From Paratinospora sagittata (lineage: Eukaryota > Streptophyta > Magnoliopsida > Ranunculales > Menispermaceae): a stretch of 64,000 bases of DNA. Positions 25,619-50,171 of this stretch are shown in pieces. The position numbers were made by a program, and so were the translations under genes. The number at the start of each line of letters is the position of its first letter. Position 1 is the first letter of the stretch. The notes beneath the pieces were generated by a model. It was given only the letters and a program-made list of their open reading frames with translations, was not told the DNA's origin and did not search any database. The stretch is taken from the NCBI GenBank assembly GCA_035771175.1, contig CM069593.1:3218461-3282460 (forward strand). The letters are read 5' to 3'.

Positions 25619-27058
25619 TCAAACCTTTTCTGGTACGTCGTAGTTCAGTGGAACTGATGGAGAAAGGTTGATTAAATCAACTGCTGTCCTCATTGCCTCC
25701 CCCCAATAGGAGTTTGGCAGTTTTGCATTTGAGAGCATACATCTGACTCTTTCACAGATGGTTCTGTTCATCCTCTCTGCGACACCGTTGTGTTGAGGTG
25801 TCTTTGGTACTGATTTTTCCAGCCTGATGCCGAAACTTCTGCAGTACTCCTCGAATGATCCGCGATACTCACCGCCATTGTCTGATCGTACACACTTCAA
25901 ACGTTTGCCAGTTTCTCTCTCAACTTTTACATGAAATTGCTTGAAAACTTCCTGCACTTGATCTTTAGTTTTCAAAGCAAAGGCCCACACTTTTCTAGAG
26001 TGATCATCAATAAAAGTCACAAAATAATGAGCACCTCCTAGTGTCTTACAACTCATTGTACAGACATCTGTGTGTATTAAATCTAGAATATTTGCCTTTC
26101 TATATGGTGGGGAACTACGAAATGCAACTCTGTGTTGTTTACCCATAATACAATCAACACAAGTACGTAAAGATGTACCTGTCATTCCTGGCAAGTGCTC
26201 CTTCTTGGAAAGAATTTTGAGACCCTTTTCACTCATGTGGCCGAGCCGCTTATGCCAAAACTCGGTGGGAACTTCTTTCCTCATGGTATTTACTTCTTCT
26301 TTACACAGCTTGGCTTCTGTGTGGTAGAGTGATGCATCTTTCTTGCCTCTGGCTACTACCAAGTTTCCTTTGGTGAGCTTCCATTTTCCTTCACCAAAGT
26401 TATTATTGTAGCCATCGTCATCAAGCATTCCGGTGGAGATCAAATTGAGGCGGATATCTGGAACATGCCTCACATCTTTCAAGAGTAACCTGTATCCAAG
26501 GTTAGTTTCTAAATAAATATTACCGATGCCGATAATTTTGGATGCATCATCATTTCCCATCCTCACTCGTCCAAAATCACCTTGCGTGTAGGCTGAGAAG
26601 AAATCTCGTCGTGAGGTGACATGGTAGGACGCACCTGAGTCAACTACCCATGTAGAGTCTTGACTTGCAAGGTTGACATAATCAGCATCTCGAACAATGA
26701 CGACTTCTTCAGTGAGAGTTGCGGTGTCATTTGTTAGGGTTTCTGCTTCTGGATTTCTGGATCGTTCCGCCTTTAACTTTCGACATTCTCGAATGAAGTG
26801 TCCGGGCTTGCCGCAGTGATGACACTTCTTGTCATGCCACGATCTGGACTTCGAGCGTCCTCTTTGCTGACTTTGGTTACGAGGATATCTGCTTTTACTC
26901 CTTCCGTGCCATTCTTGCTTGCCTTGTTTTTCCATGACAAGTGCTTCAGTTTCAGGAGTATAACCATTGTCTTTTCGTCGAGACTCTTCGTTCAACATTC
27001 TGTCTTTTACCATTTCCATGGTAAGCTTGCCGCCAGGAGCTGAGTTACTAACTGACAC
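25619..27058 (-). pseudogene. copia gag C-terminus, protease and integrase
   Basis: Zinc knuckle CHHCGKPGHFIREC (CX2CX4HX4C), protease active site WVVDSGASYHVT, integrase HHCC finger (HKRLGH ... CVDCIMGKQH) and DDE core (HTDVC ... SDNGGEYRGSFEEYC ... NGVAERMNRT). It is continuous with gag upstream except for TGA at 27071-27073, and it ends at TGA 25619-25621. Both sit where the family has Trp. Confidence 0.93.
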
Positions 27059-27070
27059 AACTAGAGTGTC

Positions 27071-32695: not shown

Positions 32696-35600
32696 TCAAG
32701 CAGCTATGGATGTGTTCATCTCATTCAGAATGCGACAATATGTTCTGTGATCTGATGTGTTCTTGAAGCCAGGGATAAAGTCAGAGAAAAACCTCAAAAC
32801 TGCTGCTAGATGTTGTGAATCATTAGAAGCAAATGCTGCCTCAAGAAATAATGCAGGTCGGACAGTATTGACCTGCAATGTGACAGATGTTCCGTTAAGG
32901 GGTCACTCTGCTTCATATTTTCTAATGTCAGAAGTTCTAATAATAAGAGTAAAAATGGAGCCGGTTGACCAAGGTTATAAAAAGATATCTCTGCAAGCAC
33001 AGATAAAGTAAACAGGTAGTGAAACATGTAGACTCATGTCACACCTTGGACTAAACTACAATATCGTTTATAGAACTGTTATTTGGTATCATTCCAGAGG
33101 AACATAGTTATGTATCATGAATAGATTAATGCTACATTAACATCCAAAGTGTATATCACATTTATACACTATTGGATTGCCTTGAATAATGAATATATGA
33201 TTCAAGGCAATTTAATGGTGTATAAAGATGATGTCATGAATATATGATTCAAGGCAATTTAATGGTGTATAAAGGTGATGTACACTATGAATGTATACTT
33301 TGGATGTCACTTTAATTTATTCCTCGTGAATAATATGTTGCATCAACATTTCCTGAAAAAAATAAATATGACATTCTTTACCATTAATATTTTTGAAAAA
33401 TGTGTCACCTAAGCACACCAATTATGCAAATATGAATATTGTAGACAGCCTGCCAAAATAGAAACCAACTATATAGTTTTGATACGAAACATAATGAGTA
33501 TTTTACTTTACCTTATGCTTGCGTGCATAGCGTAGAGCTTCAAGATAATATCCATCTTGGACTAGTAGCAAAACATAGTCATGATGCAGTCGAAGCAACC
33601 TCAACATGTCCATGCCCAATTTCCTTGTCAGATAATTCTGACGACCTGATTCTATGAGTTGCAATGCCACTTCCTTAGAGGGTTCAAGTATCTGCATAGA
33701 TAAGAACTAACTGAAATAAGAGCCAACAAAACCTAGCAACCAGCCTGGTCGAACTGACAGCCAATATGGAGTGAAAGCACACCATCCAATTTATCTCACA
33801 AGCAACTCTTTATAAAACAAAAAATAAGGATGTACCTGTGATTTTGTCATCTTGGTGGCTGGCAAATAGGAATGAGCTATGTTACCCGGACTCGGGTATG
33901 GGTGTCGGATGCGGGTAAATATGTAGAGGTTAGACTTGTTCATTTCAAATAATGGAAAACAGGGACTCAGCTAAAAAGTGTCCAGAAATTTGGATTTGAT
34001 TACTTTGACAAGGTTATGTTCATTGCTAAGCCTATATTCTATCTTCTTCTTTCTTTTCTATTCTTTGCAATTGTTTATTTTTCTCTTTTTCCCCTCCTTA
34101 AGTGAATTGTCACCTATTAGTACTTTTCTTCTTTTCGACTTTCTTCTTCTTCTTTTTTTGAAGAAACTATATAGCAGTATTCCAAAATCAGAAAATGTCA
34201 AACAAATATCTCATAGCTATGTAGGTACCATGAAGTGTTGACATGGGTTCTGTAAGTAATTAAAGAGTCCAGTGAACCAAAAAAAAGAAGAAGTAAACAG
34301 TCCATGAAACATAGGAGATGAGTACTAAACTATTTGAAAACTGTTGCTTCCATAATGTCTTTTGAAGTTTCCAATATCATCTTTTTCTTTTCCTTTTTTG
34401 TGAATTTTGGATCCCTTTTAGCAACAGGAGGAATTTTATTCTTACAAGTCAAGATTTAAGGACATGCATAACCATATAAAATTAAAAAAAAGTTGCATCA
34501 TTCTTCAAGCATTAAGTGCTTGTGAAATAAAAGATCGAGAAAATTGAGTTATAAACAAACCTTATTAACCACAAACAAGCCAACTTCCGCGTGGCGATCA
34601 CTGCGGGCTAGCAGTTGTATGGTCATAACATTCAGGCTTGGATGTACTTTAAGCTTCTCTAAAGCAGCACTGTGATGAAGGAAATGGATTAGCATCTGGA
34701 AAAACAAAAAGAATGACTACCATTTGAGCGTATTAGGCTTTTTTACAAAGCTCAGACATGAAACAAAAAACATTAGGATCTGAAGAGTCTGCTGGCAAAC
34801 TTCAAGTTCTAGATACATGTCTGGCATGGATTGAGGGAAGGAAACACTAAATTGTGTACCTGCGGAAGTACTCAACAATTATGGCAACTAAGTAAGCAGG
34901 GTCTCCGGCCATCTCTTCTTCAACAAGAGCAAAGACAAAGCTATACATCTCATCAGGTGAAATTGCTGAGGAAGTAACTTGAGACTCCTGCCGACCAGAG
35001 TCAAATGAATTTTCCCCACTTCCAAGCATTCGAGAGTGTGATGCAACATCAGCACCAGAGATTTCAGCGACAAGTTCTTGATTAGTATTTTCCTCAGAAT
35101 CAGAACAAGCTGATGATCTGTCAATTGCAGCAGAACCAGTGGTAAGATCAGTTGATTTGTTTTCAGTAGGTGCACCCACGGATTGGTGAGATTCATGGTC
35201 TGCTTCATTCAGAGATCCATGAGCAGGTTTCCCATGTGCTTCTATCCTACTCAGAGATGCATTAGGTACATTCCTTGAGCCATCAAAGTGCCGATTGCCA
35301 GAAGTTGAGGACTTCTCACTTCCCATGGATCTTCCAGGAGAATTTCCCATTCTGATCGATTGAGAGTAAGAAGCAACCAGTACATTTATTGCCCTAGAGA
35401 CCACTGCTACAGGTCGCCTTTCTAGAAATAATGTGCGAGTTAATGCCAAGCACAATTGGTTGACCTGAAACAACAAATCAAATTGCATCATGTCAATGAC
35501 AAAACTAATAATCAAGAACATAACTTTATATCGAGACAGCCCGAAGCCCGGGTAAAATATTGGGGGTTTGTACATTAGGTAGTTGACAGCTAACGTAAAA

Positions 35601-37337
35601 CCTTTTAGATCTACTTAAGTGGAGGAAGCGAATTTATGTAGCTGATCTCATGTAAGTTGGGAAAAGGCTTTATCGAGTTGAGCTGAGATGCCTAAAATTG
35701 GTTTGTAATCCAGATAGGTCTACTTAATGAAAGAGCTACAAAGCATCATGTGTTTGAGCGCAATGCAGACATGCCTCCTGATTTCATTATTTTATGATGC
35801 CTAGCCCAAAAACCCACCCCCAACACACACACACACAAAAAAAAAAAAAAGAAAAAAAAAAAAAGGGATTAAGAATCTTTGTGCACACAATATGCAAAAC
35901 GCAATAATCTTACTGTATTGGGCTCCAACTTTCGGCGTTGCAAGAATTCTAGTACTGAAGGCACTTCTGAACTACTGGCTGCAATTGCCTGTAAGCAACC
36001 TCAAAAGGATCAGAGACTACATAATGAACTAATACCAAATTAAGAAACGTTGCTGAACCCACCTCTAAATCCAAATGGATCCTCCACAAATTACAATGAG
36101 CAGTGTCACATATAAGATCAGGAACAAGAAAAGTCCAGCCATCACCATAGGACTCCTTCATGATCATCCAATTCGTTTGCTTCTAAATGCACTTTGTCTT
36201 TGCCACTAGATTGAGAGGAGGAAACATTTATCTTGGGCAAGCCCCTCAATAGAAGAGGTAGGGGAGCAGATATCGGTGCTTGACAATCTGAAAATATGTC
36301 ATACAGTATAATAACTTTTGCATCGACTTGATGAATGAGAAGCACATTATCAATCACACTGACTGCAATCTTGCTTGAATAAATAGGTAAAGAGCCCTGT
36401 AATGAAGATCAGTACAATCATTACTATTGAAAATCTACTCAATCGAGTAATACGTAGCACCTAGAATAAATAAGCAAAACAATACAAGTGGAGCAGTACC
36501 ACCACTGATTCTCAACACAATCAACCTTATCAAATAGAACTTCAACAAAATCTCAACTACTAAAATTAATTACATAATGCATCTCCGCAAGACATGATTT
36601 TGAGTAGTACCTGTTGTATAACAGCATCACGATAAAACCTATACAAGTGGAGCAGCATTGCAACTTTGTCAACTTGCAGACAGTATATTCTACCATAGCT
36701 GTGAAGATCCACCACAGAATGTGTAAGAACACTTCCAGAAATGTTGTACAGTAAAAGAAAGAACAGCTGGAATTAAATTTAGGATAAAAGAACTTCCTGT
36801 GTTAAGAAAGTAAACTAAACAGAAAGACTTACATTGTGACAATATGCACATCTTCTGCAGCTAGGACAGGTTTCTTGTTTGCCTCAGCTTTGGCCATTGC
36901 CATCTCAAACCGCGGCAAGCGAATGATTCCTCCAGATGAAAACTAAAACAGAAAAAGATAATCTTCAGGTTTTAGCATTACAATCCTGAGCCAACCAGCA
37001 GCAACATGCAGTGAAAAAGTTCATTGCAGCTACAGTACGTGGCTGAGCACATGAAATATCTCTTATGGGCCCTTAGGGAATTGAATTTAAAATTTCAAAT
37101 TCATTTTTCTTTTAATAAGAAATCCCATTTTCGCATATCATGAGATGTTCACAGAGAGAGAGAGAAGGGGTAGGGAGCAGGAGGAAGATTTACTGATCTC
37201 ATTGCCTTCATTGCAGCTACAGTACGTGGCTGAGCACGTGAAATATACTCTTATGGGCCCTTGGGGAATTGAATTTCAAATTTCAAATTCATTTTTCTTT
37301 TAATAAGAAATCCCATTTTCGCATATCATGGGATGTT

Positions 37338-37406
<69 letters not shown>

Positions 37407-40400
37407 AGGGGGGGGGGGAGGGTAGGGAAAAGGAGGAAGATTTACTGATCTCATTGCCCTACCCAACACTACAATTTTATTAGCATGAAAAAAAAAACAA
37501 CTTTGATGCAAGAACTGTATCTTCAGTTCATTATTTCTTGCAACCATTAATGAGAATACCAAATAAAATAATAGTAGGAGAGGGAGAGGGAGGGAGGGGA
37601 AGGGGGGCACAACAGTAGAAAGGAATAGTAAGAATATGACAACTATCAACTGAGTCTCCTCAGTAAACATTAGTCTACTAATCTAGTATTAGCAACCTTA
37701 GCTCAAGGAGAAACTAGCATTTGTACCTGAAATCCTGAGAAAGTCTTGCACTGCATTCCTGAAGCAAGAAGAACCAACCGACTTTCATGTGTGTAAACAT
37801 ACCAACTCACATTTAATCTCTTTGTCTCCACCATGCGGAGTGCTCTCAATCCAGGTTCATAAATGAACAAGTCCAGTCCACTGTGATTCAACTTAATATC
37901 ACATTAATAAAATTCTGCATGATTAAAGAACGAATCTAACAGAGACCCAGGACCAAATCACACCAATTATTTAAGATGAAAGAAGGAAAGTGTAATACAG
38001 TATTGTAAATAGAAGCACATTTATGCAAGTTTATACCAATACCAATACCAAATGACTCTTGCATGCTATATACTCAATGGCTTTAGGAAATCTATCAAAG
38101 AATTTCTCCTATACCCAATTTTATATATCGTTTGACTTAAATTAGCATAAGAGATTTGTAATTCCATGTAGATTCAAGTTGACATGGTTGGAAATTCTTT
38201 CCTTCAAAGGCAAAATAAACATGTAGTGTCTACATTTGGTTTTAAAATATGCTGAGGGCCATACATCTATGCTCCAAACATTAGAAAAAAAAGATTACAC
38301 CTCAGAGTAAAAATAAGTTGGGCTGGCTTTAGGGACAAAAGGAGGGAAGTTGCTGGTTTAGGGGGCAGATCAAATGCATTGATGTCACACCCTCGATTTT
38401 GGCCCAATGTAATGACTAAATTACCCGACTAAGACCCAAGGCATGATGCAGCCTTAAACCTTCTCACAAGTATAAACAAAGTAGACAATTCCCTTCTTTC
38501 GAAGTTGAAACATTAAGTTTGGTAAACACAGAAATGCTCATTAAATTGACTTGAAAGATTTGTTCACAAAATTCGAGAACTGAAATATAGATTTTGAAAA
38601 AATCTTTTCTTTTCTCAGTTCCAAAAGTTTCGTGCAAAAGTCTATTTTTAAATAAAAATCACTCAAGGGTGGAAACCACATACATACAAAACAAATTTAC
38701 ACATTACTGTAACTTACACCAATATCACAGGCAGTCCAAGTTAGTGATACTACTTCAGTATTTTGTGAATTCCTGGTCATACACACATTAGATAAGTCTC
38801 AAACCTGGACCATCCAAAACTAGACTCCGATACCTTACTAATGAGTTCATAGCCAAATCAAATGTTGTTGGGGTTACTTACTATGATTTTTCAAAGTGTG
38901 AAGTTCTGCAAACCAACCACTTACAGCTTCTGGAATTTGCCTAATTAACTAGATTAATCACTCAGAGAAATAGGTCTATTCCTCTTAACACACATTCAAC
39001 ACATACCAAATTTGCAATTATATGATTCATATAAAAACATCATGGATAAATATTTAAACCTTTCTCGTGAATTTCAATAAAACATCTTAACAACATAATT
39101 TAAACTCCAAGTAAAGCTTATTAAAAACATGAACATTGTTCAAACAAACTACTACCACCAACTTCATCATCCGAATCCAACAATGCTTGCTCCTCTTAAA
39201 TCCAATCACAACTACAACCCTCAATGAGTCATATTACTTACAAGATTAGTTAGGACAAAGAGCTAAAAGAAACATTTTTTCATACAAGTAAATAATATAA
39301 AATTCATAACATGTGCGATGTGCGTTAAACATTGTTAATGTAAAAACACGTTTCAAACCATTATATTTATACTTTTATATGTGAAAAGTGTCTATTTATG
39401 TTTGTTTTCATCATTTATAATAGTAATTATGCATATTTTAACATCTATATAGAAATTCTTTAAACTTCTCTAAGTTGGTGAATTTTTACAATAATTCTCC
39501 AAGACTTCTCGAACTTCCCCGAATTAATTCCGATTTTTAAAGGTCGGAGTGTAGGGCAAAGTTGAAGTTTCGAACCTTGATTTTTTGAGCCATACATATA
39601 AGAAACAAGAAACACACTCAAATTACACTAACTACCATAGCAACATTCCAATTTTTTAGTTAAGTATTAACCAAGCATGCTGGCCAATTTCACTTTATGG
39701 GGACAACACATAACGGAGGAGTGACCTCTAAAAATATATAAGTATGATGATACGATTTCCTCTCTGGGGTAAGAAGCCTATCAACTAGTCTCTCTTGATG
39801 GAGATTTCCAAAAGGTGTATTTGTTACTATTCACATGTCTTCTTAAGTGAATACACTCATGTAACATATTCAAAGCACACTCACGTAACACATATCAACC
39901 AGCTTGAATCTCATAAACGTGGCATCATGCATTATTTATATCACATAAACATTCTCAACTTCATAATAATCAAGAATTCATGCTTCCAGATAATGGAGAT
40001 GCAACCATGCATTCAAGAATCATTGAAAGAACTCATATATGGATGCAAGAATAGATCTAAAACACGTGAATCATGATTTCTAACACATAAAAGCAATAAA
40101 AATGGTGAAAACGATTAAGAATCACTCCCACTTAGTCTACTTGATGCTGACCCCTTTATCTTTTGATCAAGCTAAATAGAGAGCTATTGGCAATGGTTGA
40201 AAAGAATATAGTAGAAAGGCATTCCCAGTTGTTCCAATCAATTTATCACCAAGTCCCATTCCATGAAGAATATAAAGGAAGGAGTACTAATTTATTTGAT
40301 CATAGAATTCTTTTGGATCGTCAATCGTCTTTATCTAAGCCTCTTTCTATTCTCAATTGCCTCATTTTAAATCTAGACATCATCCAATTCCAAAAAAAAT

Positions 40401-43400
40401 TATCTTCCAATGAGGGCACCTTGTCAGGAGATTGATTCTAACCAAGGTTCTTTGAACCTCCATAGCCTTAACTTTAGAGATAATCTTATTAGCATTTCCA
40501 GCAAAACTAAGTACCCTACGTTCTAAAATATCTTTGCCCCTTTCACCCATAATGTTGTTGTGATCAAAATACCAAATGTGTTGTTGCAGCCAGGATATTA
40601 GAACTCGTTGTGTGGAAGTCCTTGATAATTTTCTTAGAACACACACAAAGATCATTATTTACTTCATCACTTGATGTCTCAACAATGTTCAAAGAACTTC
40701 CAAGGAAAACTGTTGTTTGTAAGAGCTTAATTCCTTACCATGTTCTAGCAATTTCCTTTAGTTTATGTACCCTCTTTTAATTCTAATACAATTTTTAGTT
40801 TCTTATGAAAAAACTCTCTCCTCTAGTCTCCTACATATGCTATATTTCTGTTTCTCAATTGGTCTCTCCAACCCAATTCTCTTTCTCTTGCCAATAAAAA
40901 AACAATGGGAAGTCATCAGGATATGCCAAGAAGCAGCAGATTCTGAAGATTACCTCAAATGGAGGCTCACATTGCCTTCGTCTATTCCTTCTTTGTATTC
41001 TAACAACATCGTTGTAAAATTTTCTTTGGTGCTATTCTTTGTGTTTGCCACTACATGGAAGAAATCTAAATGGGAATTTCCTTTAACCATTTCACCTTTC
41101 ATTTGATTTTATCTTCAAGAAATATTCTCTTCTAACCACCTCCAAGAATTCATCCTTGCACTTCCCATACTCTATTGAAATTTCCCCCCCTCCTTATTTA
41201 GCCATATCAATTGTCAGAACCTGAATTCGACCCAGCATTACAACTAAAACACTCGACTGAAACCCAAGGTGTCATCTAGTGCTTTAGACCTTCTCACTTA
41301 AACATTTTCACAAGTATAAACCAAGTAGACAATTCCTGCTTTTAGAAGTTGACAACATTAATTTTGACAACACAATAATACTCATAAAATTGACTTAATG
41401 ATTTATTCAAAAAATCATTTTCATAAAATTCAAAAACTAATTTATGGATTTTGAAAATAAAAATCTCATCTTGGTTCAAAAGTTACAGCAAAGAAGCCAT
41501 TTTTTAAATAAAAATATTCAGGGATGAAAACCTCATCCATGTAAAACAGATTTACACATTGTGTTAACTTACACCAAGATCATAAGCAGTCCATATTAAA
41601 TGAACTGCTTCAGTATTTTGCAAATTCCCCATCAAACACACACATCAGACAAGTCTCAAACCTAGATCATTTGAAACTAGACTCCAATACCCTTCCAATG
41701 AGTCCTCACTCACCCAAATCAAAAGTCGTTGGAGTATTTACTATGATTTTAGTTTTTCACACTATGCGTGGTTCTACGAAACCCACCACTTACAACTTTG
41801 AGAATTTGCCTCATTGACTAGATTAATCACTAAGAGAATTTTTTTGTTAGTCTTCTTAACAGACGTTGAACACACTTAACAATGGTATGATTCATATAAA
41901 GCATCATGGATAAATATTTAAACCTTTCTCCTGTATTTCAAAAAAACATCTTAACAACAAAATTTAAACACGGAGTCAAGCTTATCAAAAACATGAACAT
42001 TGGTAAGACAAACTACTACCCTACTTCATCATATAAATCCACTTATGCTTACTCCTCTTAAATCTATTCATAAGTCTAGCCCTCAATGAGTCATTGTCTA
42101 CAAGATTAGTTATGACAGTGAGCTAAAAGCTAGTGGATCAACCAAATCCTTTTACAACATTTTTAGAGTCATATGTATAAGAAACAACAAGCACACTTAA
42201 ACATGCAAGTTGCATAGAGTATTAAATTAACATTTTAATGTTTTTAACCAAGCATGCTGGTCCAATTGCACTTTATGGGGATAATACGCAAAGGCAGAGT
42301 GATCTCTGAAAATATATAGGTCTTATGATAGGATTTTCCTCTCTTTGGTCAGAAGCCTATCAACAACCCATCAACTAGCAGTCGCTCTATGGAGACGTCC
42401 AACAAGTGTATTTATTATTATTCAAGTCTTCTTTAGTAAATACACTCATGCAACATGTTCAAAGCACACTCATGCAATACATATCAACAAGCTTGAATCT
42501 TATAAACATGGCATCATGCATTATTTACATTACATAAACATTCAACTTCATAACAATTAGGATTTCATACTCGTAGAATCTGGAGAGGCTACCATGCATT
42601 CAAGAATCATTGAAAGAACTCATATATAGATGCAAAAATATATCTAAAACATGTGAATCATGATTTCTAATGCGTAAAATCAATAAAAAAGTTGAAAACG
42701 CTATAGAATCACTTCACTTAGTCTACTTAATCTTCAATATGTGTATTATTTTGTGGATAGCAACTTCTACTTGTCATATTTCTTCTTTGGAAGTTTTGCA
42801 ACTTCTAGACTTGATTCTCCACTCTAATAGATGTCTTACACCATCAAAAGAGAGGTTTACTCTCCAACATATGTGATTGCACAAAATGAGAAAGAGAGAT
42901 GCGCAAAGGGGAGAGAAAAGAAAACTTTGGAGAGAAAAAAGGAGACACAAGGTTGACTCTATGGGGAGAGAGGGGGATGATGTTTTCTCCTTCATTTGGT
43001 GTGGGTGGGGGCTCAACTTTTCTTCTAGGGCTTTGTATTGTCAAATTAGCGTTGAATGAAGGATTAGTTAGGCTTTTATATTAAATAATGCACACAAGTA
43101 TGTTTAATGTAGTTTCAGGAAAAAGGGGAATTTGGGGATAATCTTAGGTGGCGTTTGCTTTGGGTGTGGGATGTGTGTGACGGATAGGGTATGTTATATG
43201 AGCTCAAAAAGCTTTCTCTTAATTGTATTTAAGTGTTAATTGGGCTCAAATTAAACCCATGGCCATGGGTTATGGGTTACGTATGCTATTTGACCCTAAT
43301 TTGGCACCGTATGCACTCGGGGTCTTATTTTTCTTATATTTGTTAACAAAACTGGGTGATTATGTATAGTTATGACATTTTTGCACGTTATGACATTTTT

Positions 43401-46400
43401 GCACATTTTCAATTTAAAACCTTTAAAAATACTTACTTTCAAGTTTCATGGATTTTGGACCTCATTTGCCTGTGTTGGTAAGTTAAACTTTTACCGAGGA
43501 AATGTTTTTAAGTGTTGTCCTAAATTTTCAATGTGCCACATGGCTTTATGCCCAATGTTCTCTAAAGGATTTTTATCATTATGATTTTGTTTATGAACTT
43601 AGATTTTCAATTAGAAGTCGCTCCAATCATTTTTGTACAAAGTTACCAAAATGCCTTACTAGTGAAATTCACCAATTAGACTAACAACCAGTCATCTATA
43701 AACTGATAGCCAATTAGAGAGGGTAATACAAACACTTGAAGACATTTAGGGCTCACGCCTTATATTTCAAGGGTAACTGGAGCAAATATTTGTACCTCTC
43801 AGAATTTGCATAGAGTACAATTACCATCCAGTATCAAAATGAAATCCCCTATTAGGCTCTATATGTCTGATTGTGAAGTGAAGATCACTGGTATGTTGGG
43901 TGGATCTGGAAGAAAGGGTCAGGACGGGAGCAAATTTGATACAAAAAACAACAAAAAAGATTCAACTGGTTCGAAAATAACTTTTAACGACCCAAAGTAG
44001 GTCAAAAAGTTAAATAGACAAAAGACATTGACCTTAGGAATTGAGTGGAGGAGATTAAGCTAACCTGAAGGTTAGTCCAAAAAAAGGCCTATGATGATTT
44101 GGTAAGGAGAATAAAGTTGTCACCGAGATTCATCAATCTGTTCGAAATACTCTAAAAGATAGGGAAAAATACCTACCAATTGGCCCTACCTTCCCAAGTA
44201 TCTTAGGTACATGATGTATGTAATGTGTTGGTGCTAAGGAAGTATGTGCTAGACCCATCACATCTCATTGATTAGAGAGATGTTCAACTCTAGGAAGGTG
44301 CGACATATGAGGAAGGACCAAAATAGGTTCTTGATTGGATGATTCAAGCATTAAGGACAAAACAAATTCCTCTACTAAGGTCTTGTGACAATACCGTGGA
44401 GTTGAAGAAACTACATGGGAATTAGAATCTGAAATTAGGAAGAGATACCTCCATTTGTTTAAGAAAAGTTGTGGAATACCTCACATCTCTTTGTTAGTCA
44501 TCATTTCATGCACAAACAAGCATTCATATACTTCCTAGTGCATATAACTTGGGTTACAATTTTGAGTGTACGTTATCATGGACTATTATGATGTTGCTAA
44601 CAAAACGTATTTTGCAGATAATGAGGACTCGTATGAATACTAAGCTTGAGATTTTAGTTGGTTGGACATTCAAGCAATTTAAATTTAAAGACGACATGAC
44701 ATACGCTAATGTACAAAGCTAAAGTGGATGGTAGGATCACCCAAAAAGAGTAGTAGTGTCAGGAATGGTGGGCGCACACAACCACCAAATAAGATGATTA
44801 TCATAGTGTACGAGAGTCCTTGATGACTTCCCATTTGTTTCGATTGGCAGGAGTAAGAGCATTGGGTTGAGAGACCAATTGAGAATCGATAGCACATGTA
44901 AGAGACCAAAGGAAAGATTTTTTTATAAGAAACTGAAAATTGTTATAGAATTAAAAGAGGATACATTAGCAAAAGCAAAACTGCTAGAACATGGTTAAGA
45001 ATTGAGCTACAAACAACATTATTCCTTGAAAGTTCATAGAACATTGTTGAGACATCAAGTAATGAAGTAAATTAATAATGATTTTTGCATGTGTTCTAAA
45101 AAACACTATTGATGACTTCCACACAAAGAGTTCTAATGATCCTGGCTAGAACAACACATTCACTTATTTGATCACAACAACATTAAAGGTGCAAGGTGGA
45201 AAGATGTTTTAGAACTTGGGCTAATTACTTTTGTTGGAAGTGCTTATATGAATATCTCTAAAGTTAAGGCATGGAGGTTCAGAGAACTTTGGATAGAATC
45301 AATCTATAGACGAGATACCCTCATTGGGACATGACAAAGTTCAGATGATGTCTAGATTTAAAATGAGTCTTTTGAGAAAAGTAAGAGGTTTAGGACAAAT
45401 GTATGATTTACCAAAATGATAGATGATTCAAAAGAATTTTATGATCAAGTAAATTAGCACTCCTCCCTTTATATTCTTCATGGTGGGACTTGGTGATAAA
45501 TTGATTGGATCAACTGGGAATGTAGAACTACTGCTGCATTCTTTTCAACCATTGTTAATAGCTCTCTAGTTAGCTTGATCAAAGATAAAGGGGTCAGCAT
45601 TAGGTGGACCACCTACCGTCCTTAGTGATCATTGTTATGAAGGACTTAAAAGAGTTATAGCCTATATGTGACTGAAAGCTACATTGGAACGGGGGAGTGC
45701 TACATGAAACTCAAGTGCTTCAGCACATGTAAGAAAGAATTGATGGAACAAGACAAAATCAAGAAGCAACAGAGGCCCTGCACTCAAGAACCTCCATCAT
45801 ACAATTGTGGCCAAAATTTATTGGGGTAAAAAACATCAAGACATAAAGATCCATAGAATATATACTCCATCTTTTAACCCATAGAGAGCAAGAAGATAAA
45901 ATCCATTGATCGAAAGAGACTAATTGATGCAGGATGCACGTCGATTATCTCTAATTAAATATTTAGGGATTGATTAGGAGTTTTTATTTTATTTTTTAAT
46001 TATTTGGATTTTCTTTTCTTTTTTTTTGAGTTGTTATTTAGTTAGGAAATGAGACTTGCACCCTCTAGACCTCTAGTGGAAAAAACATAATGCAAGAACT
46101 GATTATCAGATTCCTTTCAAGGTTTGCATATCAGTTCTACTCTAGGTTTCCATATTGCTGTTGTAACTGATGATACACTTACAACAATGAAAAGATCTGC
46201 CGTGAAAATTTTGTAAGGCAATTGTCACACTAAACCAACAAAAGAAAAAGTGAATAAGGAGGAAAATTTTTGTATGGCGGTTTAGAAGCCCAAATAGAAG
46301 AGGCAGTAAAAATGCTTACAATGACTTCGATTTAACTATACATTCAGGCCATCTACATATTAAATAGCACTCTAAATAGCAAAATGTAGTTAGAACTCTA

Positions 46401-47124
46401 TTAAACAAACAATGCATGAATGTAGGAAGAGGTAACAACCAAAAATCTGTAGAAACTGGAAAGTCATGCAGCAGCTATCTGAACATGCATTTTTTTCACC
46501 CAACAGATCCACAGTTCAAAAAGAAAAAAGAGCTAATCAGAAAAAGCAATCAGTCACTACCACACATTCAAATAGCTCTATAAAGAATACTGAGTTTAGG
46601 AATTTTTCGAGCACATACCTAGTTTTAATGAATACAACATCACAGGATGGACAATCTGTCCAGAAAAACCCCAGTATGCTCTCAGATTCTGTTCCACACC
46701 TTTGCATAAACATCTCCCCAGTTTCTCTATTCACAAACTGAATCTCATGGTTTGACCTTTGAATCCCTATAACCTTTCCATCAAGTGAATAATGAATTGA
46801 AAGCACAGGTCCTTCACCTATAGAATCAATACTAGGAGTGATACGAGGAAAATTTGGACCAATTTTCCATGCAAAAACCTGCAAAACCACACGCAGATCT
46901 GTCACTTAGCACAGTAAAAGATGTTGACATACTTAGCATTTCATGCGTCACATTACCTGATTAACTGTAGGGGAGAGTAGTAACTTATTTCCATCATCGT
47001 AGTATAAACCTTTTGATCCAGGAAGACTACATCTTAGGGGAGGATGTTGGATATAAACATGTGATAAAGCACCAGATCCACTAAAACCACCAGTAGGCTG
47101 AGAACTTGACGCCCTTCCAAACAT
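32696..47124 (-). CDS. RMC1: RMC1 (Mic1/C18orf8) homologue, 11 coding exons, with a frameshift in exon 6
   Basis: Homologue of Regulator of MON1-CCZ1, which in animals helps activate Rab7 on late endosomes/lysosomes; the plant role is inferred by homology. Exons: 46957-47124, 46619-46878, 37727-37880, 36833-36942, 36611-36698, 36063-36396, 35914-35988, 34860-35464, 34561-34669, 33512-33691, 32696-32872. All have GT-AG sites and matching phases; about 753 residues once the frame break is allowed for. The N-terminal half (LYYDDGNKLLLSPT, SESILGFFWTDCPSCDVVF, LNVSWYVYTHESRLVLLASG) is beta-propeller-like. Residues about 400-540 are a Ser-rich linker; the C-terminal Mic1 domain holds DMLRLLRLHHDYVLLLVQDG and ends NEMNTSIAA. 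In exon 6 the frame breaks near 36150: it meets TGA at 36142-36144, while YGDGWTFLVPDL continues one frame over. Either the allele is truncated at about residue 344 or the sequence has an error. Intron 2 is 8.7 kb of transposons. A possible AATAAA is at 32131-32136. Confidence 0.93.
33140..33307. mobile_element. MITE in RMC1 intron 10
   Basis: Inverted ends: ACATCCAAAGTGTATATCAC on the left, and ACATCCAAAGTATACATTCA read inward from the right; arms about 50 bp including ATTGCCTTGAAT. An inner unit (AATATATGATTCAAGGCAAT ... GGTGTATAAA) is present twice in tandem. Confidence 0.75.
37022..37460. repeat. Tandem segmental duplication in RMC1 intron 3
   Basis: Unit 1 (37022-37209) and unit 2 (37210-37460) both run from ATTGCAGCTACAGTACGTGG through GCATATCATG to GATTTACTGATCTCATTGCC. 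They differ by few substitutions and by expansion of the GA tract in unit 2. Confidence 0.9.
37341..37403. repeat. (AG)n microsatellite
   Basis: Long AG tract of about 63 bp within the second duplicated unit, followed by a G-run; unit 1 has only about 14 bp of it. Confidence 0.95.
38393..40141 (+). mobile_element. LTR-like copy A in RMC1 intron 2
   Basis: Starts TGTCACACCCTCGATTTTGG. Parallel to 41212-42726 along most of its length: GTATAAACxAAGTAGACAAT, CATGGATAAATATTTAAACC, TTCAAAGCACACTCA, and the end block CACTTAGTCTACTT. It contains a hAT-like insertion at 39282-39579 that copy B lacks. The match stops at 40141, where an inverted-repeat arm begins. Confidence 0.7.
39282..39579 (+). mobile_element. 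hAT-like non-autonomous repeat, copy 6, with empty site in copy B
   Basis: Ends AAGTTTCGAACCTTG at 39579. Flanks ATTTTTTC (39274-39281) and ATTTTTTG (39580-39587) are a near-perfect 8-bp duplication. LTR copy B has one ACATTTTTAGAGTCATA at the matching place (about 42161), an unfilled site. Confidence 0.7.
40143..40920. repeat. Inverted repeat, left arm (778 bp)
   Basis: Its reverse complement matches 44819-45601 along its length with moderate divergence. Shared blocks include AGAGAGCTATTxxCAATGGT, ATTTTAAATCTAGACATCAT and TTGATGTCTCAACAATGTTC. Content not recognised; no intact ORF. Confidence 0.85.
41212..43181 (+). mobile_element. LTR-like copy B in RMC1 intron 2
   Basis: Starts TGTCAGAACCTGAATTCGAC and is collinear with copy A to about 42726, then runs further (to about 43181 by my estimate, near GATGTGTGTGACGG). 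No target duplication or PBS could be fixed. Copies A and B may be the two LTRs of one element or independent insertions. Confidence 0.6.
43990..44490 (+). pseudogene. Ty3/gypsy integrase C-terminus and chromodomain, decayed
   Basis: Plus-strand reading with frameshifts and stops shows SPRFINLFEIL, YQLALP, VLRKYVLDPSHLID and VLDWMIQALRTKQIPLL, followed by ELESEIRKRYLHLFKKS-like residues. This is the typical order at the end of chromovirus Pol (integrase tail, chromodomain). Several stop codons; not functional. Confidence 0.75.
44819..45601. repeat. Inverted repeat, right arm (783 bp)
   Basis: Reverse-complement partner of 40143-40920; about 3.9 kb separates the arms. It begins TGATGACTTCCCATTTG and ends GATAAAGGGGTCAGCAT. 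Confidence 0.85.
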
Positions 47125-47405
47125 TTTTCCTTTTTAGTCTGATGTGTTAACTTCAATGATACAACGTTGTTGAAGTTAGTCTGCCCAATGTTTTTGAAAG
47201 AATTAGGCAAAATAGGAACAAAATTCCGCAACAGAAAGATATATGTGAAGGCTTAAGAAGCATTATTTTTCCCATGAAACAGCAATTGCCATTCAATATA
47301 GATATCATATTCTACACTCTTATCCAATCTTGTGTGAATATTAGGATAAACCTTTCAGAGTTCAAGTGAATACCTCTCCGAAGATTGAGAGCAGAAGATT
47401 CAATC

Positions 47406-47998
47406 TTACGCCTTTGCTCTCAGCTATTGAGCAGCAGAGAAAATTGTTGTCAACAAACTTTGATCAGAAAGAGATGAATGCAACAAAGCATTTCTTTCTA
47501 CAGAAACATAATATTTCTGTCTTTTATGGCATACCGTATTCTGCATGCATGCTCTTAGTGCAAGAAACTCCTTCAGACACATGTCACGTTCAACCTCGGG
47601 CACCTTTGCTGCGACGCAACTGCCATATTCCTTTGCCTGAAGAATTTGGTTTTATAATTGAAAATGAAGAAAATGTTAATCAGTTTTGCCAAAAAAAAAA
47701 TGGAACTTATGATCAAAGAGAAGTAACCATTTGAACAAAAATTAAACAGACCAATTTTATTTGCAAAGTAACAAGAGCATAATGCAGCAGAAAGTGACAA
47801 CAAAAGTACAAGAACTGCACATTTCCACCATATTTATTCCAGCTATCATGGCAAGCTGAGGCAATCATATGCCTGAAGTACAAGCAAAATCAATGAACAG
47901 GGACATTAACTTGGTCTAATTGAAGTTCATAGACTGACCTGGGTTGAACAATTGATCAAAATGCGCTTCAGTGTGGAAGTGGTGTTCCTCTCTTTCAT
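47406..47998 (-). CDS. 59-residue twin-CX9C protein (NDUFAF8-like), probable conserved upstream ORF of RMC1
   Basis: Three exons, 47939-47998, 47535-47636 and 47406-47423, all GT-AG, phase 0, give 59 codons plus TAA. The protein opens MKERNTTSTLKRILINCSTQ, the middle carries YGSCVAAKVPEVERDMC, and it ends NTLRAKA. Cys spacing is C-9-C (residues 17 and 27), 12 residues, then C-9-C (40 and 50), a helix-hairpin-helix twin CX9C fold oxidised by MIA40 in the mitochondrial intermembrane space. The spacing and the EYG-x-C / KEF-x-ALR-x-C pattern match NDUFAF8, a complex I assembly factor. No presequence, as usual for this class. The stop lies 281 bp upstream of the RMC1 ATG on the same strand. A donor (47373) just after the stop and acceptors (47139 or 47181) just before the RMC1 ATG suggest both ORFs are on one mRNA. 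I recall an Arabidopsis conserved-peptide uORF on the RMC1 homologue, consistent with this. It could instead be a separate close-packed gene. Confidence 0.85.
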
Positions 47999-48861
47999 TT
48001 TCAGATAACTGGAAAATCAATAGCCAATGACATAAATGCAAAGAGATAAATTTAAACCAGAACAGCAGATAGTATAAATAGAAGATGCCCATGAAGCAAT
48101 CGAAGTTTCAAGTTACAAAACCATAAATGTCCCCAACACAGCTTGCATGCAGCATGCAAGGGTAAACAAAGCACAAAGGAAAGGCACAATGCAAATGCTC
48201 CAACCACCAAAATTACAACAAACTACAAGAAGGCAATACAAGGTTGAACTTGGAGTTGTAAAAACATGATTAACAGCATTAAAAGCATATTTTTTTAAAC
48301 GGGTGAATAAAGATTTATGTTGATGTTCAAGAATCACAAGATTATAACACCTTGACAATACTAATCCATCCTATTAGAGTGTAGAGCAAATACTTTGATC
48401 ACTCATAAAATGCAGATTATAGAGACTAACTAGACGTCTGAATTGTTGTTACCACCAACCATTGAAGCATCACATTCCACAGATGCACAAATCATCTCAA
48501 GAGAGAAACCTCGCTCAAGCCACAACCCCGAAATCAAATTTACACGATCTGATAATAATTATAAAACAATTACAAGATTTTCACCCTATAACAGGATTTT
48601 CAGCGCAGATAATTAATGATCTAATGCCAAAAACAACAAAACATCTAGTAGCGCAAACTAATCACGATCAAATAAATCTCCCGTCACACACCACACCAAC
48701 AAAAGCTAATGAAATAATAATAATAATAGTAGTAATAGCAAAAACTAGGTCAATTAGACGATTTTCAATCTATCGAAGATCAGAGAACGGTTCCAGTAAT
48801 TGAAGAAACCCTAATTCGCGCAGAATTTAGGGTTCCAGTAATTCAAGGGCTGAAGAATTAC

Positions 48862-49080
48862 CTTCCGAATAATTAAGAAACTGTTGAAGTAACATGTGAT
48901 CAGAGAAGAACAAGCGAAGAGAAACACACTAACGCTTGCTAATCTGTAAATAAGAAATAGTCTCTGCTTAATATTACCGCAGTTTTCTTCTTCTTCACTA
49001 CCGTTTTCTCCTTCTGAGGAAATACCTGGCAAGTGATAAAAAGATCTCTGGCAGAATCATGTCTTTGCGTCTAGACTCCA
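48862..49080 (-). other. Putative first 5' UTR exon of the twin-CX9C/RMC1 transcript
   Basis: A donor at 48861 (GGAAG|GTAATTC) can pair with an acceptor at 48009 (TTTTCCAG|TTATCTG) that lies 10 nt before the small-ORF ATG. Another possible donor is at 49027 (CCAG|GTATTTC). The true start of transcription is not visible; the upstream limit is a guess. Confidence 0.45.
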
Positions 49081-50171
49081 GATCTGATCCGCCACGTAAC
49101 GGTCGTATTACGAACACAATAGAGGAAATATCTTCTACTCCCAACGTTCATGCTGTAACGTACTTTTTTTTTTAATTTAGATATTTTGTTGCATTTTAAT
49201 TTTTAACGGTAACTAAAATGCACTAATTATTTTATTTTATTTTATTTTTTTGGTCTTAAAGTAACTAAAATACAGTTCAATTTTCTAAATTAATACAACT
49301 TTTTTGTTTTTTTTTGCCTAAAAGTAATCTATGTTCCATTTTAAAATTGATAAATCCACCGATTCTGTAAACGTTTTCGGTTTCTCCTATAATGTCTCTG
49401 TCTTTCGAACGAAATTAATTCGCGTTCGACCACTGCAGAAGCATTGAACGATTCTCTCTAAATAAACGTGATTAAAGTGAATACAAATTTCAATTATAAT
49501 ATCTCTAAGTAGATAAGATTTCATCAACCTTTCTTTTAATCTCGCATATAATTCACATTTTTTTTTCATGTTTTTTGAATGCAAATATTTCTACTAACAA
49601 AATAATGAATCAATAAATCCATGATTGAGTTGAAATTATTGAGAGATGGATACAAAGTTTTCTAATTTAATCAATTTGAAACGATTTAATAATAAAAGTC
49701 CAAACAATTTCTTAATTTCTTAATTTCCTTTTTTTTTAATTGATAAGGTGGTTGGTTTAATAAAGAAGGAAACACCCCCTTTAAGCTCGGCAATTTCAAT
49801 GCTCAATTTCATGAAAATCGATATTGGCACCAATTAACACATGAAAAATTAGGTGATTTTTCAGTCTTCCGTTCAAACCAACCAACTACATCGTGGAAAT
49901 TTGTATATTGACTTCAACATAAGAGAAACTGAGACCTCTTAATATATAAATTAGGCACTAGAAATCTTGGTTTCTCACGTTCAAGAATAGTTGATATATT
50001 TTGAAAAATATATGTACTAACACACTAAGTTTATTTAATGCATCATTTTTTATTTTTAATTTATTTGTTATTTTATTTTATTTTGAGTAATGTTAAATAT
50101 ACGCTGAGTATTTTTCGATACTGACATTTAGCCTTTTTTTAGATATTAGGATATTACGCAATACAGACGTT

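Follow-up and report, generated by a model that had tools for sequence, protein, structure and literature searches.

Among the conserved-peptide upstream open reading frames (uORFs), homology group 8, comprising Arabidopsis At3g12010 and rice LOC_Os10g26140, is one whose land-plant members, as far as found, all stand before a Mic1-like gene (Hayden and Jorgensen, 2007; PMC2075485). In the same paper the cysteine spacers of the group are given as 9, 11–15 and 9 residues and its human member as 74 residues long, and the land-plant and vertebrate genes have introns after C1+3 and C4+4. The authors further propose that members in plants, arthropods and nematodes became fused with three independent genes. 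Here we analyse such a pair in 64,000 nucleotides of the Paratinospora sagittata genome (contig CM069593.1, positions 3,218,461 to 3,282,460; this whole stretch is the window below), where a spliced open reading frame of 59 codons, ORF1, precedes the RMC1 gene on the minus strand, and we consider it quite likely that ORF1 is the plant orthologue of NDUFAF8 and the first cistron of the RMC1 mRNA, in the arrangement published for homology group 8. Mic1-like is taken here to denote the RMC1 family. The pairing itself is already known, and has been in print since 2007 as 'uORF, similar to Mic-1' (PMC2075485); what we add is the NDUFAF8 match of the mini-protein, a check that the second ORF is RMC1, and a sign of constraint on ORF1. 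The initial annotation of this DNA had pointed to a conserved-peptide uORF on the Arabidopsis RMC1 homologue, and such a uORF does exist, namely homology group 8, At3g12010 (PMC2075485).

In a 2012 paper, group 8 was called a twin CX9C protein and 'probable dicistronic', with a second ORF labelled Mic-1/GDF15 of the TGF-beta superfamily (PMC3426882). The product of AT3G12012, a locus present in TAIR10 and absent from Araport11, was detected in Arabidopsis mitochondria with high coverage in all six digests (PMC11142381). Comparable arrangements exist elsewhere. Plants and green algae have a CDC26-TTM3 bicistronic mRNA in which a short and ancient first ORF likewise lies ahead of a larger, unrelated one. 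We take TTM3 to be the second ORF of the cdc26 transcript of homology group 30. That transcript is listed next to group 8 as putatively dicistronic (PMC3426882). The proteins differ from ours, however, and co-expression of CDC26-TTM3 is reported to have been tested experimentally (PMC11291117). In the fly CG9865 transcript, which carries twin-CX9C uORFs before a putative mannosyl transferase, uORF3 is the fly member of group 8 and again lies upstream of an unrelated gene (PMC2276209), although this fusion, to another gene, is proposed to be independent (PMC2075485).

ORF1 occupies 47998-47406 of the window in three exons, with GT..AG borders at both introns, and its product has two CX9C pairs (C17/C27 and C40/C50). 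The parts of ORF1 and the sequence on either side of it are as follows.

47999 to 49039, minus strand: candidate 5' leader, as read from the sequence
47939 to 47998, minus strand: ORF1 exon 1, 60 nt, MKERNTTSTLKRILINCSTQ, with the ATG start at 47998
47637 to 47938, minus strand: ORF1 intron 1, 302 nt, GTCAGT..CTTCAG, phase 0, after C1+3, a position matching published group 8
47535 to 47636, minus strand: ORF1 exon 2, 102 nt, containing C27, C40 and C50
47424 to 47534, minus strand: ORF1 intron 2, 111 nt, GTATGC..CAATAG, phase 0, after C4+4 (C50+4), corresponding to the human NDUFAF8 exon end c.195
47406 to 47423, minus strand: ORF1 exon 3, 18 nt including the stop, LRAKA-stop
47139 to 47373, minus strand: predicted intercistronic intron, with its donor at 47373 and an acceptor ending at 47181 or 47139

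The initial annotation had given the same 59 codons, exon lengths and cysteines, a distance of 281 bp to the RMC1 start on the same strand, and a donor 32 nt past the stop with two acceptors that would leave 46 or 88 nt, and every one of these coordinates held when checked against the sequence. An acceptor-like CAG lies 10 nt ahead of the ORF1 ATG, so that a 5' untranslated intron before ORF1 is possible. ORF1 thus lies directly upstream of a Mic1-like gene and has introns at C1+3 and C4+4, and it resembles homology group 8 (At3g12010 with AT3G12012, and LOC_Os10g26140) in cysteine spacing, in both intron positions, in the Mic1-like downstream gene and in length, 59 residues lying within the published land-plant range of 59–62 (PMC2075485). 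The difference is one of copy number: P. sagittata carries five recent copies of the pair on a single contig, and a further one on an apparently redundant contig, whereas Arabidopsis is reported to have lost the duplicates from two genome duplications (PMC2075485). As a rough yardstick, the contiguous twin CX9C pattern with a spacer of 11–15 residues occurs nowhere in the six frames of the window, in a scan that is blind to spliced ORFs, ORF1 included.

Kinship of the mini-protein with NDUFAF8

The 59-mer was aligned (Smith-Waterman) to NDUFAF8, CHCHD7, COX17 and TRIAP1, all human twin-CX9C proteins, and each of the four scores was set against 2000 shuffles in which the cysteines were kept fixed. 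The CHCHD7, COX17 and TRIAP1 sequences were identical to Protein Data Bank (PDB) chains over their full length, and the NDUFAF8 sequence, from which the position C61 also derives, was checked against the published description of the human protein. With these letters NDUFAF8 scored 78, which was equalled by none of the 2000 shuffles (z 8.7). The scores of the other three were far closer to those of the shuffles, namely 29 for CHCHD7 (reached by 561 of 2000; z 0.5), 33 for COX17 (230 of 2000; z 1.3) and 39 for TRIAP1 (24 of 2000; z 3.0). The similarity of the mini-protein to NDUFAF8, as judged from these alignments, therefore goes beyond the shared cysteines and exceeds that to the three other CX9C proteins tested, which bears out the NDUFAF8-type kinship put forward in the initial annotation. 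The NDUFAF8 letters used agree with that published description, both in length (74 residues) and at all six aromatic positions (Trp8, Phe18, Tyr32, Phe50, Phe55 and Phe62; Alston et al., PMC7042492).

Gene structure points the same way. Human NDUFAF8 has three exons, one of which ends at c.195, i.e. codon 65 (PMC7042492); this codon is C61+4, and plant intron 2 follows C50+4, so the two three-exon genes share this intron position. The two proteins also share the twin CX9C arrangement, aligned AxYGxCV and CxxEFxALRxC blocks and a Phe at C3+4; plant F44 aligns with NDUFAF8 Phe55, the residue altered in one patient (PMC7042492). Human NDUFAF8 (C17orf89), which acts in complex I assembly and stabilises NDUFAF5, differs in being longer (74 versus 59 residues), in its C2-C3 spacer (15 versus 12 residues) and in being apparently a free-standing gene in mammals (PMC2075485), whereas the plant ORF1 sits before RMC1. 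Because NDUFAF8 fits the length, the spacers (9, 15, 9) and the second intron of group 8, the human member of Hayden and Jorgensen is most likely NDUFAF8, a name absent from the relevant passages of their paper (PMC2075485).

Two points temper this assignment. The comparison panel consisted of only four human CX9C proteins, and in Pfam the best match of the 59-mer was CX9C (PF16860; E 1.8e-4) at 21.8 bits, below the curated cut-off of 26.4. The human NDUFAF8 sequence used here also stays under this cut-off, with 14.1 bits, and therefore the Pfam scan cannot decide the matter, since the cut-off does not define this subfamily. The alternative, that the mini-protein is a twin-CX9C protein of a different branch, for example CHCHD7- or TRIAP1-like, draws on its best PDB sequence match, CHCHD5 (E 0.05), on published trees in which CHCHD7-like proteins are nearest to group 8 (PMC2075485), and on TRIAP1 beating most shuffles; within our panel of four, however, NDUFAF8 far outscores the rest, CHCHD7 does no better than shuffled sequences, and the C4+4 intron is common to ORF1 and NDUFAF8, and we hold this alternative to be very improbable. 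CHCHD7 in particular, published as nearest to group 8, is rejected as the closer human protein by the number of shuffles that reach its score. The NDUFAF8 sequence, used as a PDB query, matched no NDUFAF8 chain.

The initial annotation had also surmised that the likeness to NDUFAF8 might have gone largely unnoticed, which fits our full-text literature searches. No paper combining NDUFAF8 with upstream open reading frame was found in a full-text search whose scope left most subscription papers and TAIR outside. Papers naming both NDUFAF8 and Arabidopsis included none about this locus, judged by title and the start of the abstract, and in those looked into NDUFAF8 was a reference-list or table entry. 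Neither a plant paper, by title, among the listed matches for C17orf89 nor any paper with NDUFAF8 among the listed matches of broader searches came to light, and the text seen of PMC9305500 and PMC7106846 held no passage on homology group 8 (matches in the latter were to HG80-HG88 and the like). Among the listed papers naming At3g12010, At3g12012, or NDUFAF8 together with Arabidopsis, no test of the plant protein for NDUFAF5 binding or a role in complex I was found. An existing NDUFAF8 annotation in databases such as TAIR is possible. The exons of ORF1, at just 60, 102 and 18 nt, leave a probable plant complex I assembly factor open to being overlooked by annotation, and with NDUFAF8 and RMC1 as names an anonymous conserved-peptide uORF becomes a testable case, in which complex I may be affected too in knock-out or promoter lines of plant RMC1.

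A probable shared transcript and a possible path to the RMC1 AUG

The ORF1 stop and the RMC1 ATG at 47124 are 281 nt apart. If splicing joined the donor at 47373, which begins 32 nt past the stop, to the acceptor ending at 47181, the distance between the ORFs would shrink to 88 nt, or to 46 nt with the acceptor ending at 47139, and we infer that one mRNA would carry both. Removal of the predicted intron would take out four AUGs, a number near what chance gives in some 200 nt of such sequence, by rough estimate.

Whichever acceptor is used, a ribosome scanning from the ORF1 start to the RMC1 start would meet four AUGs. Two of these are in frame within ORF1; one, in the context A at -3 and G at +4, starts a frame of 17 codons; and another, also with A at -3, starts a frame that is 70 or 56 codons long and continues beyond the RMC1 AUG. 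The start codon of ORF1 likewise has A at -3. With four intervening AUGs, one of them in good context and one frame overlapping the RMC1 AUG, efficient translation of RMC1 from one mRNA is therefore not obvious, and leaky scanning to the RMC1 AUG looks difficult from these contexts. Moreover, in Arabidopsis readthrough bicistrons, the second ORF was rarely translated in 7 of 8 tested (PMC9768141). The bicistrons of green algae use leaky scanning, with weak ORF1 contexts and few intervening AUGs (PMC11291117), whereas neither the weak context nor the scarcity of AUGs is clear at the plant locus, and reinitiation, at low efficiency, would therefore be the preferred route to RMC1.

In the pathway that we propose, ribosomes would translate ORF1 as the main product, which would fold into an oxidised twin-CX9C hairpin and help NDUFAF5 in building the complex I Q module. 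The RMC1 AUG would be reached by a minority of ribosomes, more probably by reinitiation over the gap of 46–88 nt than by leaky scanning, and the result would be a low level of the Rab7 guanine nucleotide exchange factor (GEF) subunit. The pairing would most simply be a frozen transcriptional fusion, which does not need a functional coupling of the two proteins as explanation.

Two rival accounts share the same gene order. ORF1 and RMC1 could be adjoining genes with separate transcripts, the polyadenylation site of ORF1 lying inside the 281-nt gap and the RMC1 promoter in the gap or in the ORF1 introns. Homologues of ORF1 do appear monocistronic in several lineages outside land plants (PMC2075485), polyadenylation within 5' leaders is documented for other Arabidopsis genes (PMC6041940), and one AT-rich cluster resembling a polyadenylation signal, AAAATAAT, begins at 47269. 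That cluster, however, is the sole place in the gap matched in a scan for 12 such hexamers (non-overlapping matches), the gap also holds a donor and two acceptors, the discovery of group 8 came from a comparison of Arabidopsis and rice full-length cDNAs, and a Mic1-like ORF follows in the land-plant members identified (PMC2075485), all of which makes fully separate transcripts unlikely; bicistronic and short transcripts may also occur side by side. The other account makes ORF1 a classical regulatory conserved-peptide uORF, whose translation or nascent peptide represses RMC1 in cis and whose peptide has no job of its own. Its position in the leader of a larger ORF and the discovery of the family as conserved-peptide uORFs are as this account expects, translation of ORF1 and the four AUGs ahead of RMC1 should indeed lower RMC1 translation, and the authors of the 2012 paper left open that first ORFs of dicistronic transcripts may have regulatory functions (PMC3426882). 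Against it, the protein accumulates in Arabidopsis mitochondria (PMC11142381), it has kin of known function in NDUFAF8, and the same paper listed homology group 8 apart, under putative dicistronic transcripts (PMC3426882), so that a purely regulatory ORF1 seems to us quite improbable; ORF1 may regulate RMC1 as a side effect.

Returning to ORF1 as the NDUFAF8 cistron of an RMC1 mRNA, a more far-reaching version would be that land-plant NDUFAF8 was locked early into one mRNA with RMC1, that its amount sets the amount of the Rab7 activator through shared transcription and competition between starts, and that the mini-protein may be under stricter selection than RMC1 in the recent copies. We regard this version as speculative and rather doubtful. 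If it were true, mitochondrial and endolysosomal capacity would be hard-wired to each other, the latter through the Rab7 activator of the vacuole.

Copies of the pair and constraint on ORF1

In the assembly searched (1.29 Gb, 4049 contigs), exon matches were found at at least six places, a lower bound, five on the contig of the window (C5; at about 0.84, 1.67, 3.27 (the window), 3.89 and 3.92 Mb) and one on contig C1635. Across 15,736 bases C1635 and the window are 100% identical, and this contig is probably redundant. Copies A to D, the remaining four, are 96.0–99.5% identical to the window in the stretches kept (>250 bases and >94% identity), and the five-fold segment could be either a real segmental duplication or an assembly effect. 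ORF1 is intact in all six copies, with a protein that differs by one residue in copy A and is identical in the rest. All 10 RMC1 cores tested are kept in four of the five copies on C5, the window included; copies C and D lie close together in opposite orientation, and copy C has lost, on its own strand, the two final RMC1 exon cores. Copy B is homologous only from window position 48332, inside the presumed 5' leader, and may therefore use another promoter.

Between copy A and the window, ORF1 shows one nonsynonymous and six synonymous changes, against a neutral expectation of a nonsynonymous fraction of 0.75 (P 0.0015), while the RMC1 cores show 14 and six (P 0.43). These counts support protein-level constraint on ORF1 in this genome. 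The direct comparison of ORF1 (1:6) with RMC1 (14:6) gave a Fisher P of 0.024 with the serine-rich exon core R5 included. Several results count against a strong reading of these numbers: without core R5 the comparison becomes 1:6 versus 6:5 (Fisher P 0.15), and copies B, C and D, which carry identical changes wherever all were scored and are thus not independent, have ORF1 counts of 0:2 each (P 0.065 alone, not significant). In addition, the ORF1 exons carry more substitutions (7/180) than the adjoining introns and gap (4/693; window 47998-47125 versus copy A; P 0.002). Gene conversion among the copies is possible and would upset substitution counts. Stronger constraint on ORF1 than on RMC1 is thus only suggestive in these alignments. 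ORF1 as a chance frame is ruled out by its intron positions, homology and constraint taken together.

The RMC1 gene and its surroundings

The downstream gene was called RMC1 in the initial annotation, and two Pfam matches on the joined exon pieces from 47124 downwards uphold that identity: RMC1_N (PF21029; E 2.6e-30, 105.3 bits versus a cut-off of 27.3) and RMC1_C (PF07035; E 9.6e-31, 107.5 bits versus 26.9). The RMC1_N match (residues 41-155 on profile positions 2-117) begins in exon 1, spans exon 2 and continues into the first core without a notable gap. The pieces cover about 14.4 kb, down to 32699, with an intron of about 8.7 kb after exon 2.

46957 to 47124, minus strand: RMC1 coding exon 1, 168 nt, with the ATG at 47124
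46616 to 46878, minus strand: RMC1 coding exon 2, 263 nt, from sequence and Pfam RMC1_N
32699 to 46615, minus strand: remaining RMC1, with the long intron to 37882 and then exon cores, whose borders are approximate
37882-37727, 36396-36148, 36146-36063 and 35988-35920, minus strand: RMC1 exon cores, approximate ends
35464-35126, 34695-34561, 33691-33506 and 32872-32699, minus strand: RMC1 exon cores, continued, approximate ends

The animal RMC1 protein forms the third subunit of the Rab7 GEF that contains Mon1 and Ccz1 (PMC7239660). When three joined exon stretches were scanned with Pfam, no TGF-beta family match appeared; the matches were RMC1_N, RMC1_C and two weak WD40/beta-propeller ones below the cut-off. 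With RMC1 domains present and no TGF-beta match, we reject the GDF15/MIC-1 cytokine label given to the second ORF in PMC3426882; the label looks like a confusion of two proteins both named Mic1, and the RMC1 domains correct this earlier reading.

The long RMC1 intron contains two stretches of about 490 bases, at about 42731-42244 and 40145-39667, that are 82.6% alike, and an Rfam scan of 35000-50000 gave no matches. Beyond the RMC1 region, a Copia-like retrotransposon frame with a zinc knuckle, a GAG-pre-integrase domain and an integrase core lies at 25622-27070 on the minus strand, adjoined by long frames that extend from 27598 to 24002.
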